Notes under the pieces: generated by a model
Seen by the model: the letters and a program-made list of their open reading frames with translations, nothing else
Databases searched by the model: none
Told to the model about the DNA's origin: nothing
In this document: positions 40,698 to 44,444 of the stretch, piece by piece
Position numbering within the stretch: position 1 is the stretch's first letter
Layout: every line of letters starts with the position of its first letter
Position numbers and translations under genes: made by a program
Source of the DNA: Angustibacter sp. Root456
GTDB lineage: Bacteria; Actinomycetota; Actinomycetes; Actinomycetales; Angustibacteraceae
DNA length: 64,000 bases
Direction: 5' to 3'
Assembly: GCF_001426435.1 (NCBI RefSeq)
Contig: NZ_LMER01000019.1
Span: 1 to 64,000 of the forward strand

Positions 40698-41504
40698 TCA
40701 CACGAGCTGCGGCACGCTGCGGACGGCCGTGTAGACGGCCACCAGCACGAGCAGCACCGTGAACGCCCGGGTCAGCGTCACCGGACGCACCCGCGTCGCG
40801 ACCCGGCCGCCGACCAGGCTCCCCACGATGGCCGCGCCCGTGAAGGTCGCGAGCAGCCTCCAGTCGAGCTCGACGCCTGCACCGAGCCGGGCCACGAGCG
40901 CCGAAGCGCTGTTCACCGTGATCACGAGCAGCGACGTGCCGACCGCCACCGGCATCGAGAAGCCCAGCGACAGCACGAGGGCCGGGACGACGGCGAACCC
41001 GCCGCCCACCCCGAAGAACCCCGTGAGCAGGCCGACCGCCGTCGCGGTGACGACGACCTTCAGCGCCTGCGGGCAGTGGCAGACGAACGGGTGGAACGAC
41101 ACGACCGTCGCCTCACCGGGGTCGTCGCCGCCGTCACCGCGCCCACCGCGCATGCTGCGGCGGAACATGATCGCGGCGACCACGAGCATGAGCCCCGCGA
41201 AGGCCGCAAGCAGCACTTCGGGCGCCACGGCGGCTGACAGGCGCGACCCGGCCCATGCGCCCGCGATGCCGAGGACGCCGAAGGCCAGGCCGTGCGCCAC
41301 CCGCACCCGTCCGGCCCGCGCGTGGGCGAACATGCCGAACAGCGAGGTGATGCCGACGATCAGCAACGAGCCCGTGGTGGCGCTGCGGGGGTCCTGGTCG
41401 AGCAGGTACACCAGGGCGGGGACGGTGAGGATCGAGCCGCCCCCGCCCAGGGCACCGAGGCTCAGCCCGATGGCCAGCCCGAGCGGGATCGCCAGCCAGA
41501 TCAT
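40698..41504 (-). CDS. TauE/SafE-family (TSUP) sulfite/organosulfur permease
   Basis: A 268-residue membrane protein with about eight helices and the TauE/SafE pattern (LGALGGGGSILTVPALVYLL and GFFGVGGGFAVVPALVLSLG). A cytosolic loop carries a Cys-His-Cys sequence (FVCHCPQAL) often seen in CstR-linked members. It is the last gene of an operon with a persulfide dioxygenase and a rhodanese, overlapping the former by 4 bp. The likely role is export of sulfite or related sulfur species made during persulfide breakdown. Confidence 0.87.
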   Translation of the reverse strand: MIWLAIPLGLAIGLSLGALGGGGSILTVPALVYLLDQDPRSATTGSLLIVGITSLFGMFAHARAGRVRVAHGLAFGVLGIAGAWAGSRLSAAVAPEVLLAAFAGLMLVVAAIMFRRSMRGGRGDGGDDPGEATVVSFHPFVCHCPQALKVVVTATAVGLLTGFFGVGGGFAVVPALVLSLGFSMPVAVGTSLLVITVNSASALVARLGAGVELDWRLLATFTGAAIVGSLVGGRVATRVRPVTLTRAFTVLLVLVAVYTAVRSVPQLV

Positions 41505-42853
41505 GAGGTGATCGGCAGGCCGACCTGGGCGGCGCTCTCGTCGAAGGAGTCGTCGACGGCGACCACGGTGTGGCCCTGGGCCGCGAGGATCGACGCGACG
41601 ACCGACGCGCGGTAGCCACCGGCGCAGTGGATCCACACCTCGCCACGCGGCACCTCGTCGAGGCTCTCCAGCACCTCGTGGATCGGGACGTTGACGGCGC
41701 CCTCGATGTGGCCGTCCTTGAACTCCTGACGGCGACGGACGTCGAGCACCGCCACGTCACGGTGGTGCCGCACCTGAGCCAGGTCGGCGAACGTGGCGCG
41801 GGGGAACGACCCCAGCTCCTCGTCCGTCCAGTCCTGCGGGCGGCCCGTGGCTGCGCTCGGGCCGTCGATGCCGATGCGCGCCAGCTCGCGCTGCGCCTCT
41901 GCCACCTGCTCCTCGGACTCACCGAGCAGCGTCACCGGCGTCCCCCACGGCATGAGCCAGCCGAGGTAGGTGGAGAACTGCCCGTCGAGGCCGAAGTTGA
42001 ACGTGCCCTTGGCGTGGCCGGCGGCGAACGCCGTGCGCGTGCGCAGGTCGACGAGCCACTCGCCCTGCTCGAGGCTCGCGCGCAGCGCCTGCTTGTCGGC
42101 CCGGCGCGGCGCGCCGAGGTCGGGGGCGCTGGGGCCGGCGGCGTTGGCCGGGCTCATGTGCGCGTAGTACGCGGGCCAGTCGTCGAGCGCGGCGAGCAGG
42201 TCGGCGACCCACTGCTCCTCGTCCTGCGTCAACGCCGGGTTCGACCGCTTCTCCTGGCCGATGGTCGACGTCGTCGCCTCGCTCTGCGTGGAGGAGCAGA
42301 AGCTGCCGAAGCCGTGTGTGGGAAGCACCTGGGCGTCGTCCGGCAGCTCGGACGCGAGGCGGTGGGCCGAGGCGTACTGGTGATGCACCAGGGCCTGGGT
42401 GTGGTCGGGGCCGAGCAGGTCGGGCCGCCCGGTGGAGCCGAACAGCAGCGACCCGCCGGTGAACACCCCGAGGTGCTCGCCATCGGCCTCGAGGGCGTAC
42501 GACAGGTGGGTGAAGGTGTGGCCGGGGGTGGCGATGACGGCGACGCGCATCGACGGGCCGACCTCGACGACGTCACCGTCGCTGACCGGCGTCCGGTCGA
42601 ACGCGACCTCGTCGGCGGCGTTCACGTGGTACGCCGCCCCCGTGGCTTCGGCGAGGGCCAGGCCCCCGGTGACGTAGTCGTTGTGCAGGTGCGTCTCGAA
42701 GACGTGCGTGATGCGGACGCCGGTGGCGCGCGCGAGGTCGAGCACGCGGTCGATGTCGCGCTGCGGGTCGATGACCAGGGCGACCTCACCGTCGTGGGCG
42801 AGGTAGCTGCGATCGCCGAGGCTCGGCGTCTCGAGGGGGACGATGGTGACCAT
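41501..42853 (-). CDS. Persulfide dioxygenase-rhodanese fusion (CstB-like)
   Basis: A 450-residue protein with an N-terminal metallo-beta-lactamase/ETHE1-type domain (about 1-235; ETHLHNDY gives His55, His57 and Asp59; GHTFTHLSY), a middle rhodanese-like domain with no active-site cysteine (about 260-340) and a C-terminal rhodanese with Cys410 in IHCAGGYRAS. The same order and a similar length are found in CstB, which oxidises low-molecular-weight persulfides to thiosulfate. The ATG at 42,853 begins the conserved sequence. It is co-transcribed with the rhodanese and TauE-type genes behind a CsoR-type operator. Confidence 0.88.
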   Translation of the reverse strand: MVTIVPLETPSLGDRSYLAHDGEVALVIDPQRDIDRVLDLARATGVRITHVFETHLHNDYVTGGLALAEATGAAYHVNAADEVAFDRTPVSDGDVVEVGPSMRVAVIATPGHTFTHLSYALEADGEHLGVFTGGSLLFGSTGRPDLLGPDHTQALVHHQYASAHRLASELPDDAQVLPTHGFGSFCSSTQSEATTSTIGQEKRSNPALTQDEEQWVADLLAALDDWPAYYAHMSPANAAGPSAPDLGAPRRADKQALRASLEQGEWLVDLRTRTAFAAGHAKGTFNFGLDGQFSTYLGWLMPWGTPVTLLGESEEQVAEAQRELARIGIDGPSAATGRPQDWTDEELGSFPRATFADLAQVRHHRDVAVLDVRRRQEFKDGHIEGAVNVPIHEVLESLDEVPRGEVWIHCAGGYRASVVASILAAQGHTVVAVDDSFDESAAQVGLPITS

Positions 42854-42882
42854 GGGGTGAGACCTCTCGGGCGGTGAGCGGA

Positions 42883-43206
42883 TCAGGCGGCGTTGGCGCG
42901 CGGGCCGGTGACGATCGGGTATCCGGCGGAGGCCCACGCGTGGGTGCCTCCAGCGACGGACGTCGCCTGGACGCCGGCGCGCTGCAGGAAGTCGGTCATC
43001 GCCAGGCTGCGGTTGCCGCGCGCGCAGATGACGTAGACGGGGCGGTCCTGGGGCAGGTCCGCCACCTTGCCGGGCAGCCGGCCCATGGGGACGAGCTCTG
43101 CTCCGGGGACGTGTCCACTGACGTACTCCATGGGCTCGCGCACGTCGATGACGTACGCGCCGTCGCGGTGAGCCGCGACGAACGACTCCAGGGTGACCTC
43201 TCGCAT
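42883..43206 (-). CDS. Single-domain rhodanese
   Basis: A 107-residue rhodanese-like sulfurtransferase with active Cys61 in VICARGNRS. The start at 43,206 is chosen because GGAG stands 9 nt upstream; an ATG at 43,221 has its purine run directly adjacent, which is poor spacing. It is the first gene of the leftward sulfur-stress operon and likely moves sulfane sulfur to the persulfide dioxygenase encoded next. Confidence 0.85.
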   Translation of the reverse strand: MREVTLESFVAAHRDGAYVIDVREPMEYVSGHVPGAELVPMGRLPGKVADLPQDRPVYVICARGNRSLAMTDFLQRAGVQATSVAGGTHAWASAGYPIVTGPRANAA

Positions 43207-43239
43207 GCGTGCTGACTCCATCCCTTCGGTTCCGCTGAA

Positions 43240-43390: not shown

Positions 43391-43762
43391 ATGACCACCC
43401 GAGCCCTCACGGCCACGGACTTCGAGCAGACCCTGCGCGACAACGACATCGTGCTCGTCGACTTCTGGGCGTCCTGGTGCGGCCCGTGCCGCATGTTCGC
43501 GCCGGTCTTCGAGAAGGCGTCCGAGGTGCACACCGACATCGTCTTCGGCAAGGTCGACACCGAGGCCGAGCAGAGCCTGGCCGCGGCCGCCCAGATCACC
43601 TCGATCCCGACGCTGATGGCCTTCCGCGACGGCATCCTGGTCTTCAGCCAGCCGGGCGCACTGCCCGCCCCGGCGCTCGACGACCTGATCGGCCAGCTCC
43701 GCGCCCTCGACATGGACGCCGTCCGGTCCCAGCTCGCCGAGCAGACCGCCACCACCCACTGA
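43391..43762 (+). CDS. Thioredoxin
   Basis: A 123-residue thioredoxin with the active site WCGPC (Cys30, Cys33) and the cis-proline motif SIPTLM. The ATG at 43,391 is preceded by AGGAGG. It lies first in the rightward operon of the sulfur-stress locus, so it likely reduces persulfidated proteins or regenerates the sulfurtransferases; general disulfide reduction is also possible. Confidence 0.9.
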   Translation: MTTRALTATDFEQTLRDNDIVLVDFWASWCGPCRMFAPVFEKASEVHTDIVFGKVDTEAEQSLAAAAQITSIPTLMAFRDGILVFSQPGALPAPALDDLIGQLRALDMDAVRSQLAEQTATTH

Positions 43763-43771
43763 GGAGACCCC

Positions 43772-44161
43772 ATGGGCTACGCACTCAGCACGACCGTCGA
43801 GCGCGGCTTCGACGACACGCTCACCGCCACCCGGGAGGCGTTGGCGGAGCAAGGTTTCGGCGTCCTCACCGAGATCGACCTCAAGGCCACGCTGAAAGCC
43901 AAGCTGGACGTCGACGTCGCCCCGCAGGTGATCCTCGGGGCGTGTCGTCCGCCGCTGGCGCACGCGGCCCTGCAGGCCGAGCCCTCGGTGGGGTTGCTGC
44001 TCCCGTGCAACGTCGTCGTACGCTCGGTCGACGACTCGACCACGATCGTCGAGGCCCTCGACCCCCAGGTCATGGTGGGGCTCACCGACAACACCGCACT
44101 CACCGACGTCGCGGACGAGGCCGGTCGCCGTCTCGCCGCGGCGCTCGACTCACTGGCCTGA
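43772..44161 (+). CDS. DUF302 family protein
   Basis: A 129-residue DUF302 protein. Its core ([29 protein letters not shown] and [28 protein letters not shown]) is the family pattern, including Cys58 and Cys79. DUF302 genes are often found with CsoR/CstR regulators, thioredoxin and sulfur transfer genes, but no biochemical role is established. It lies between thioredoxin and the CsoR-type gene in one operon with good ribosome sites. Confidence 0.85.
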
Positions 44162-44177
44162 CACGAAGGAGCTCGCC

Positions 44178-44444
44178 ATGGTGGCGCTCAACCCCGACGA
44201 CATGGGTGCGGTCATGAACCGGCTGCGCCGCGCTCAAGGCCAGATCGGCGGTGTCATCCGCATGATCGAAGAAGGCCGCGAGTGCCAGGACGTCGTCACG
44301 CAGCTGGCTGCGGTCAACCGCGCGCTCGACCGCGCCGGCTTCGCGATCGTGTCGACGGGGCTGAAGCAGTGCCTCAGCGAGCCCGGCGGCGCCGAGTCGG
44401 CGGACGTCAAGGCGATGGAGAAGCTCTTCCTGACGCTGGCCTGA
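44178..44444 (+). CDS. CsoR-family repressor, CstR-like (persulfide sensing)
   Basis: An 88-residue all-helical CsoR-family repressor. Cys36 ([10 protein letters not shown]) and Cys65 (GLKQCL) are present, but the position of the third copper ligand, His61 in copper-sensing CsoR, is Gly61. Two cysteines without the histidine match CstR, which senses per- and polysulfides by forming a di- or trisulfide link. The gene is in an operon with thioredoxin and DUF302, and two matching operators lie in the divergent promoter region at 43.24-43.37 kb. Confidence 0.87.

Follow-up and report, generated by a model that had tools for sequence, protein, structure and literature searches.

A six-gene locus in Angustibacter sp. 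Root456 is described here which, judged by its gene content, repressor residues and operators, very probably represents a sulfane-sulfur response circuit controlled by a repressor of the CstR/ScCsoR type. The locus occupies positions 40698-44444 of the window, which is the whole 64,000 nt stretch of DNA that was analysed (contig NZ_LMER01000019.1, positions 1-64,000 of the forward strand). One of its genes encodes a protein of the DUF302 family, and the repeated occurrence of such genes beside this type of repressor suggests that DUF302 is a recurrent regulon member and an under-appreciated extra component of a known circuit.

Genes, operators and repressor

Two operons diverge from a 184-bp gap, with start codons at 43206 and 43391. 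The leftward operon (minus strand) begins with a single-domain rhodanese (42883-43206; PF00581, 4.4e-16) that carries Cys61 in a CARGNR loop. This is followed by a fusion of a persulfide dioxygenase (PDO)-like metallo-beta-lactamase (MBL) domain, a Cys-less middle rhodanese-like part and a rhodanese with Cys410 (41501-42853; Rhodanese and Lactamase_B), and then by a TauE/SafE permease (40698-41504; PF01925, 1.1e-44), a likely exporter of sulfite or organosulfur compounds, whose gene overlaps that of the fusion by 4 bases. The rightward operon (plus strand) comprises a thioredoxin with the motif WCGPC (Cys30, Cys33; 43391-43762; PF00085 and TIGR01068, above cut-off), the 129 aa DUF302 protein with Cys58 and Cys79 (43772-44161; PF03625, 9.1e-23) and a CstR-like repressor of the CsoR family with Cys36, Gly61 and Cys65 (44178-44444; Trns_repr_metal, PF02583, 9.5e-24), separated by gaps of 9 and 16 bp. 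All six scored above the Pfam cut-off in a profile search of the window proteins, and the genes that an earlier note, made from the sequence alone, had proposed for this region were thus all present with the positions and strands it gave. Its description of the locus as a 'complete' cst-like locus was too strong because there is no TusA-rhodanese of the CstA type among the six genes, the rest of the genome not having been searched for CstA.

The gap contains two perfect inverted repeats of the form ATACCN6GGTAT, which is the operator of the ScCsoR-type, persulfide-sensing members of the CsoR family, one at each of the two predicted promoter regions. Operator 1 (ATACCCAGGGGGGTAT, 43243-43258) precedes the leftward operon and lies 36 bases ahead of the rhodanese start codon, and operator 2 (ATACCCCTGCCGGTAT, 43352-43367) precedes the rightward operon, 23 bases ahead of the thioredoxin start codon. 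No further match was found in the window with one mismatch allowed (0.06 expected), and in the 3.84-Mb genome the exact sequence occurs at 4 places, 2 of which are in this gap. No recognised sulfur gene was seen near the other two (C14:264442 and C14:420211) when the lists of open reading frames (ORFs) were judged by eye. A TATAGT hexamer, also noticed by eye, adjoins operator 1 on the minus strand.

The repressor has its two Cys at positions 36 and 65 and Gly instead of His at position 61, as the earlier note had read them; this is the pattern of persulfide-sensing CsoR proteins and not the Cys-His-Cys site that binds Cu(I). Its best matches among solved structures are 7mq1-7mq3, deposited as CsoR, which we take to be streptococcal CstR and in whose aligned sequences the residue-61 position is occupied by Asn or Ala instead of His. 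The genome also encodes a separate CsoR with His61 (C-H-C) on another contig, where it adjoins a copper-chaperone-like reading frame containing GMTCGHC, presumably a copper-chaperone motif.

Residue 61 was compared in 104 distinct CsoR-family genes from the 38 DUF302-bearing genomes of an order-wide sample, and was His in 53, Gly in 36, Ala in 10 and Ser in 4, with 1 unaligned. A PDO-like gene was located within 4 kb of 22/36 Gly, 3/10 Ala and 2/4 Ser genes (27/50 non-His) and of 0/53 His genes; for rhodanese, the numbers were 22 Gly, 7 Ala, 3 Ser and 0 His. The flanks are only about 1.5 kb for 31 of the 53 His61 loci, and the remaining 22 also have no PDO or rhodanese (Fisher p ~6e-6, with 21 counted; here and below these tests ignore relatedness). 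The operator was found in 12/16 Gly loci that lack DUF302 and in 14/14 Ala/Ser loci, which gives 26/30 non-His loci without DUF302, and in 1/49 His61 loci (four of the 53, L076, L077, L203 and L210, being omitted); the His61 loci are shorter and total 240 kb with 1 site, as against 229 kb with 32 sites for the 30 non-His loci. In this order, then, both the operator and the sulfur genes accompany His-less CsoR proteins, and in genomes of actinobacteria residue 61 together with the operator may serve as a simple rule to separate CsoR proteins that sense sulfur from those that sense copper.

These data also bear on whether the locus could be a copper-responsive one, in which the repressor senses Cu(I) and the two Cys of DUF302 buffer copper. 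The fold is that of the CsoR family, both Cys of a copper site are retained, two of the 57 CsoR genes found adjacent to DUF302 genes (see below) are of the His61 type, and among 113 proteins encoded near DUF302 genes that lack sulfur neighbours 2 contain multicopper-oxidase domains. Nevertheless, Gly occupies the position of the His ligand, there is no copper gene among the six, the genome holds its own His61 CsoR, and both the operator (1/49 His61 against 26/30 non-His loci) and the PDO genes (near none of 53) avoid the His61 type, which makes copper sensing very improbable. Copper was rejected as the main reading on the basis of residue 61, the gene neighbours and the operator distribution, and the preference of the earlier note for persulfide or sulfane-sulfur sensing is supported by these and by the separate His61 CsoR.

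By analogy with the homologues, the reduced repressor would occupy both operators and keep both operons off. Persulfides or polysulfides would modify Cys36, probably linking it to Cys65 of a neighbouring subunit, and the modified repressor would release the DNA so that both operons are expressed. The rhodaneses would then pass sulfane sulfur to a low-molecular-weight thiol, the dioxygenase-rhodanese would oxidise the persulfide to sulfite and TauE would export it, while thioredoxin would reduce surplus protein persulfides and disulfides. The small DUF302 protein may use its two conserved Cys to accept or carry sulfane sulfur and be unloaded by thioredoxin.

The dioxygenase-rhodanese fusion

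The best solved-structure matches of the fusion are the MBL-rhodanese fusions 3tp9 and 3r2u, the latter presumably S. aureus CstB, followed by PDOs and ETHE1. Its MBL domain, Cys-less middle rhodanese-like part and active-Cys rhodanese reproduce the domain arrangement of CstB, and its only Cys are residues 186 and 410, the second of them in a CAGGYR loop, as expected for the Cys410 rhodanese of the earlier note. At the place of the pseudo-rhodanese proposed in the same note, the Cys-less middle aligns with the corresponding parts of 3tp9 and 3r2u, but Pfam calls the last rhodanese domain only.

The iron site differs from that of CstB. The Asp of the S/TGD motif is an iron ligand in PDOs such as ETHE1, and the S/TGD of 3tp9, 3r2u and 4ysb corresponds in a gap-free alignment to FTGG in the window protein, with Gly134 at the Asp position; His55 and His112 are kept, and a second Asp, six residues further on, is also lost. 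The 2-His-1-carboxylate site is therefore incomplete, and the fusion cannot be called a canonical CstB, as had been assumed, because the Asp ligand is replaced by Gly.

This replacement is not peculiar to the window. Gly was found at the Asp position in 31/31 sequences scoring >400 bits to the window protein (the window's included), and a wider set of 89 related sequences (>130 bits and 380 aa) divided into 64 with Gly and 25 with Asp, the two classes being defined by the motif itself and 4 of the 64 Gly-class sequences being divergent and lower-scoring. Every member of the Gly class has His55, His57, His112 and His116, the last of which is also found in 15/25 of the Asp class. The Gly class (FTGG) includes all four named Streptomyces loci that carry the fusion gene (L113, L121, L125 and L127). 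It also includes 28/30 loci from the genus of genome G474, these being the best matches among 62 of 121 genomes; in the other two another ORF was probably read first. Since these Streptomyces and G474-genus loci have Gly, the S. coelicolor enzyme ScPDO perhaps belongs to this class as well. With GSSH as substrate, ScPDO has a measured activity of 1.19 umol O2 per min and mg according to the accessible text of its description (PMC7533328).

The iron site of PDOs in general consists of two His and one Asp, and in the Acidithiobacillus enzyme the change of iron ligands to Gly abolished activity; Ala and triple-His variants retained low activity (PMC6060420, accessible text). As a ligand-to-Gly change inactivated that enzyme, the Gly-class proteins may either bind iron through a different residue, such as a third His, or be weak or different enzymes. 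A candidate three-His site could perhaps be drawn from His55, His57, His112 and His116, as in cysteine dioxygenases. Among the titles and abstracts returned by literature searches, none addresses PDOs with Gly in place of Asp.

DUF302 as a recurrent neighbour of the repressor

The window DUF302 protein matches PF03625 with 80.4 bits against a cut-off of 23 and clearly belongs to the family. All 39 sequences collected with the Pfam model (window included, the partial L066 left out) have Cys58 and Cys79; this set was used for the count because the other search relied on patterns around the two Cys. The modelled structure (predicted local distance difference test, pLDDT, 96.6) has the DUF302 fold and matches 1q9u (Z 20.5, rmsd 1.4 over 128 residues) and 1j3m (Z 20.3), in both of which the two Cys are also present. 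A structure search at E <0.001 returned only these two unannotated DUF302 entries and the Brucella entry 7tj1, and therefore no mechanism can be taken from the fold. The title of PDB entry 7tj1 names the fluoride transporter CrcB and looks wrong; the structure shows the fold of DUF302 (Z 17.0).

DUF302 was detected in 38/297 genomes of the order-wide sample and in 122/396 of a phylum-wide sample. Its neighbourhood was examined for 115 distinct genes, drawn from 40 order-sample loci and, for named genomes, from the 80 best of the confirmed matches, of which there were at least 592. The search behind these matches was the one that used patterns around the two Cys; of the 42 order-sample rows the window's own was not counted and L078 gave no DUF302 match. 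A CsoR-family gene lies within 1 kb of 57 of the 115, and is of the Gly61 type in 55 and of the His61 type in 2 (L076 and L077, from one genus). For the order sample alone, the association was seen at 20/39 loci, with a chance expectation of ~0.08 for 41 genes. Viewed from the CsoR genes of the 38 genomes, 19/36 with Gly61, 0/14 with Ala/Ser61 and 2/53 with His61 adjoin DUF302 (Gly61 versus His61, Fisher p ~1e-7).

Two gene orders were observed; (thioredoxin-)DUF302-CsoR, as in the window, and CsoR-DUF302 in Mycobacterium, Nocardia, Gordonia, Rhodococcus and others. On a tree of 174 DUF302 proteins (128 columns, FastTree) adjacency to CsoR changes at least 25 times, and 11 times when well-supported branches only are considered. 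In the phylum sample, CsoR is within 1 kb of DUF302 at 21 of 60 loci taken from the higher-scoring part of the matches (18 Gly, 1 Gln, 1 Ser, 1 Ala, 0 His). Within 4 kb of these 60 there are PDO (17), thioredoxin (12), rhodanese (12) and sulfide:quinone reductase (SQR; 2) genes, the baseline for thioredoxin and rhodanese being the His61 loci only, and 39/60 have a non-His CsoR within 1 kb or PDO, rhodanese, thioredoxin, TauE, SQR, DsrC or DsrE2 within 4 kb.

The operator accompanies DUF302 as well. It was found in 44/60 DUF302 rows with a Gly61 CsoR and in 20/53 rows without CsoR in the locus (0 for a reversed-pattern control), the latter figure counting L111 twice and including L123, whose A+T-rich site may be due to chance; in 13 of the 53, as counted from the list, it lies within 1 kb upstream of DUF302. 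Thioredoxin is located within 6 kb of 33/115 DUF302 genes. In Nocardioides (L105 and L119), SQR, DsrC, DsrE2 and DUF302-CsoR stand in one row, with thioredoxin in L119 only; in L243 and L274 DUF302 adjoins DsrE2-DsrC-SQR without CsoR; and in a Thermomicrobium (L146) matches to PDO and rhodanese come after DUF302. DUF302 is opposite the PDO in 4 named Streptomyces loci and in the short flanks of 9/30 of the G474-genus loci. In the accessible texts, DUF302 is also reported in sox clusters (PMC5037610, PMC11034169) and a relative in the Synechocystis sqr operon (PMC5061849). The suggestion that DUF302 is a component of persulfide handling is thus supported by the CsoR adjacency and the neighbours, as an association only.

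Given the two Cys and the frequent thioredoxin neighbour, the simplest and most likely idea is that DUF302 accepts or carries sulfane sulfur on its thiols, and the reaction sketched above, with unloading by thioredoxin, is put forward tentatively. The main alternative to a carrier is that DUF302 and thioredoxin reset the repressor, reducing the sulfur cross-link of the CstR-like protein and so ending the response, which would make DUF302 a regulatory partner. Such a role would suit the two invariant Cys and the arrangement as Trx-DUF302-CsoR or CsoR-DUF302, in which adjacent genes are mostly 6 to ~140 bp apart; however, it is rendered unlikely by DUF302 genes that have no CsoR nearby, such as those beside SQR-DsrC-DsrE2 (L243, L274) and those of the sox clusters. 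Beyond the carrier role itself, a broader two-part proposal is somewhat more doubtful than the carrier reaction but less so than the reset. Here DUF302 would be a dedicated sulfane-sulfur protein recruited repeatedly to CstR, SQR-DsrC-DsrE2 and sox sets, where it may be a two-Cys carrier or a persulfide-reducing partner of thioredoxin, and the actinobacterial PDOs would form a class that lacks the carboxylate ligand, perhaps with a three-His site. It leads to two testable statements; that DUF302, which is widespread and has no known function, acts on persulfides, and that an actinobacterial PDO class works without the iron-binding Asp of the characterised enzymes. If true, a dedicated sulfane-sulfur role would give a function to a family that is without one.

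Several observations weigh against the circuit as proposed or against DUF302 as a regular part of it. A strict promoter and terminator scan gave 0 matches, the dioxygenase step appears less certain with the iron-ligand Asp lost, and 2 of the 55 Gly61 neighbours have no Cys36 (L043 and L129). There is no DUF302 within 4 kb of 17/36 Gly61 and 14/14 Ala/Ser61 genes (31/50 non-His), and therefore the circuit can do without it. Conversely, no gene of the queried kinds was found within 6 kb of 39/115 DUF302 genes, some of these loci being cut by contig ends, and the sox operon of T. thioparus, in the accessible text, is without DUF302 (PMC5248467). The same-genus genome G004 has no DUF302 and no dioxygenase match at E 1e-60, so that the locus looks accessory.

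This accessory character, and the 98 of 174 DUF302 proteins on the tree that have no same-strand CsoR within 1 kb, would be compatible with DUF302 being a hitch-hiker, a neutral neighbour carried along by transfer of the whole cluster. The two opposite gene orders, the 11 or more supported changes of adjacency on the tree and the operators within 1 kb upstream of 13/53 CsoR-free DUF302 genes argue against this, and we consider it improbable, more so than the reset. A different common partner of the DUF302 genes without sulfur neighbours was not found, as no family occurred in more than 3 of 113 scanned neighbour proteins (121 in total, from our own gene caller, which missed DUF302 itself in 6/39 loci), and ten DUF302 neighbours examined singly showed nothing consistent. 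In the proteobacterial loci L145 and L150 a cytochrome c adjoins DUF302.

Downstream sulfur genes and comparison with known systems

A second set of sulfur genes, on the plus strand (47193-49295), starts 2.7 kb downstream of the persulfide locus. It consists of an SQR-like gene (47193-48440; PF07992), which is linked to the locus and a putative member of the regulon only, a DsrC/TusE family sulfur relay protein with one C-terminal Cys (48442-48756; PF04358, TIGR03342) and a DsrE2-like sulfur carrier (48771-49295; PF13686, with NF047629 below cut-off). Compared with five homologues, the SQR-like gene changes frame near 48260-48310, which reflects either a genuine break or a mistake in the assembly. 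The cassette recurs in L105, L119, L243, L274 and L209, in some genomes beside DUF302 and/or a Gly61 CsoR.

Between the two sets lie a Haem_oxygenas_2 'iron-containing redox enzyme' (44742-45878, minus strand) and a CDGSH iron-sulfur protein (45938-46159, plus strand). A 62-aa ORF with two CxxC pairs (44448-44636, minus strand) is convergent to the repressor gene and has no match in Pfam or NCBIfam. Scans of the window gave 0 matches to Rfam and 0 tRNAs.

The earlier note had taken the staphylococcal cst operon as the nearest system. This operon reportedly comprises CstR, CstA, CstB, TauE and SQR. The locus resembles it in the His-less CsoR-family repressor, the MBL-rhodanese fusion and TauE, and differs in that it has no CstA, has thioredoxin and DUF302, and has Gly for the iron-ligand Asp. 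The DUF302 protein itself shares its fold and both Cys with 1j3m and 1q9u, entries that are titled as proteins of unknown function.

The cluster of B. licheniformis around yrkD is similar in its CstR-like repressor, PDO, rhodanese-like protein, TauE, thioredoxin and SQR, and differs by an added NreBC two-component system; 'DUF302' is not in its accessible text (PMC9918477). As the thioredoxin ydfQ is already part of this cluster, thioredoxin is not a new addition, contrary to what had been suggested. The SUL module of Arthrobacter plasmids shares a sulfur dioxygenase, a CsoR-family regulator, two rhodaneses, TauE and DUF302 with the locus, but it is available in the accessible text as an annotation list only, with no thioredoxin listed (PMC6305408). 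Beyond this listing, no analysis of the association of DUF302 with CsoR or sulfur genes was found in the texts consulted.

The closest counterpart is the ScCsoR circuit of S. coelicolor (sco0618-0621), which has the same PDO-rhodanese fusion, TauE, rhodanese and CsoR-like repressor, an identical operator and more than one promoter under the repressor. As described in the accessible text, the CsoR-like protein binds ATACCn6GGTAT, a site bound by ScCsoR in electrophoretic mobility shift assays, before the PDO-rhodanese gene and between its own and the rhodanese genes; TauE is cotranscribed with the PDO, polysulfide frees the DNA of the repressor, the modified residue is Cys37, and all 16 antibiotic producers examined reportedly carry a comparable set of four genes (PMC7533328). 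The Angustibacter locus is unlike it in having thioredoxin and DUF302 in the operon of the repressor, 'DUF302' being absent from that text. Because its operators match the ScCsoR site and it is without CstA, the locus appears to be a new member of this published actinobacterial circuit, with the staphylococcal cst operon as a more distant relative.

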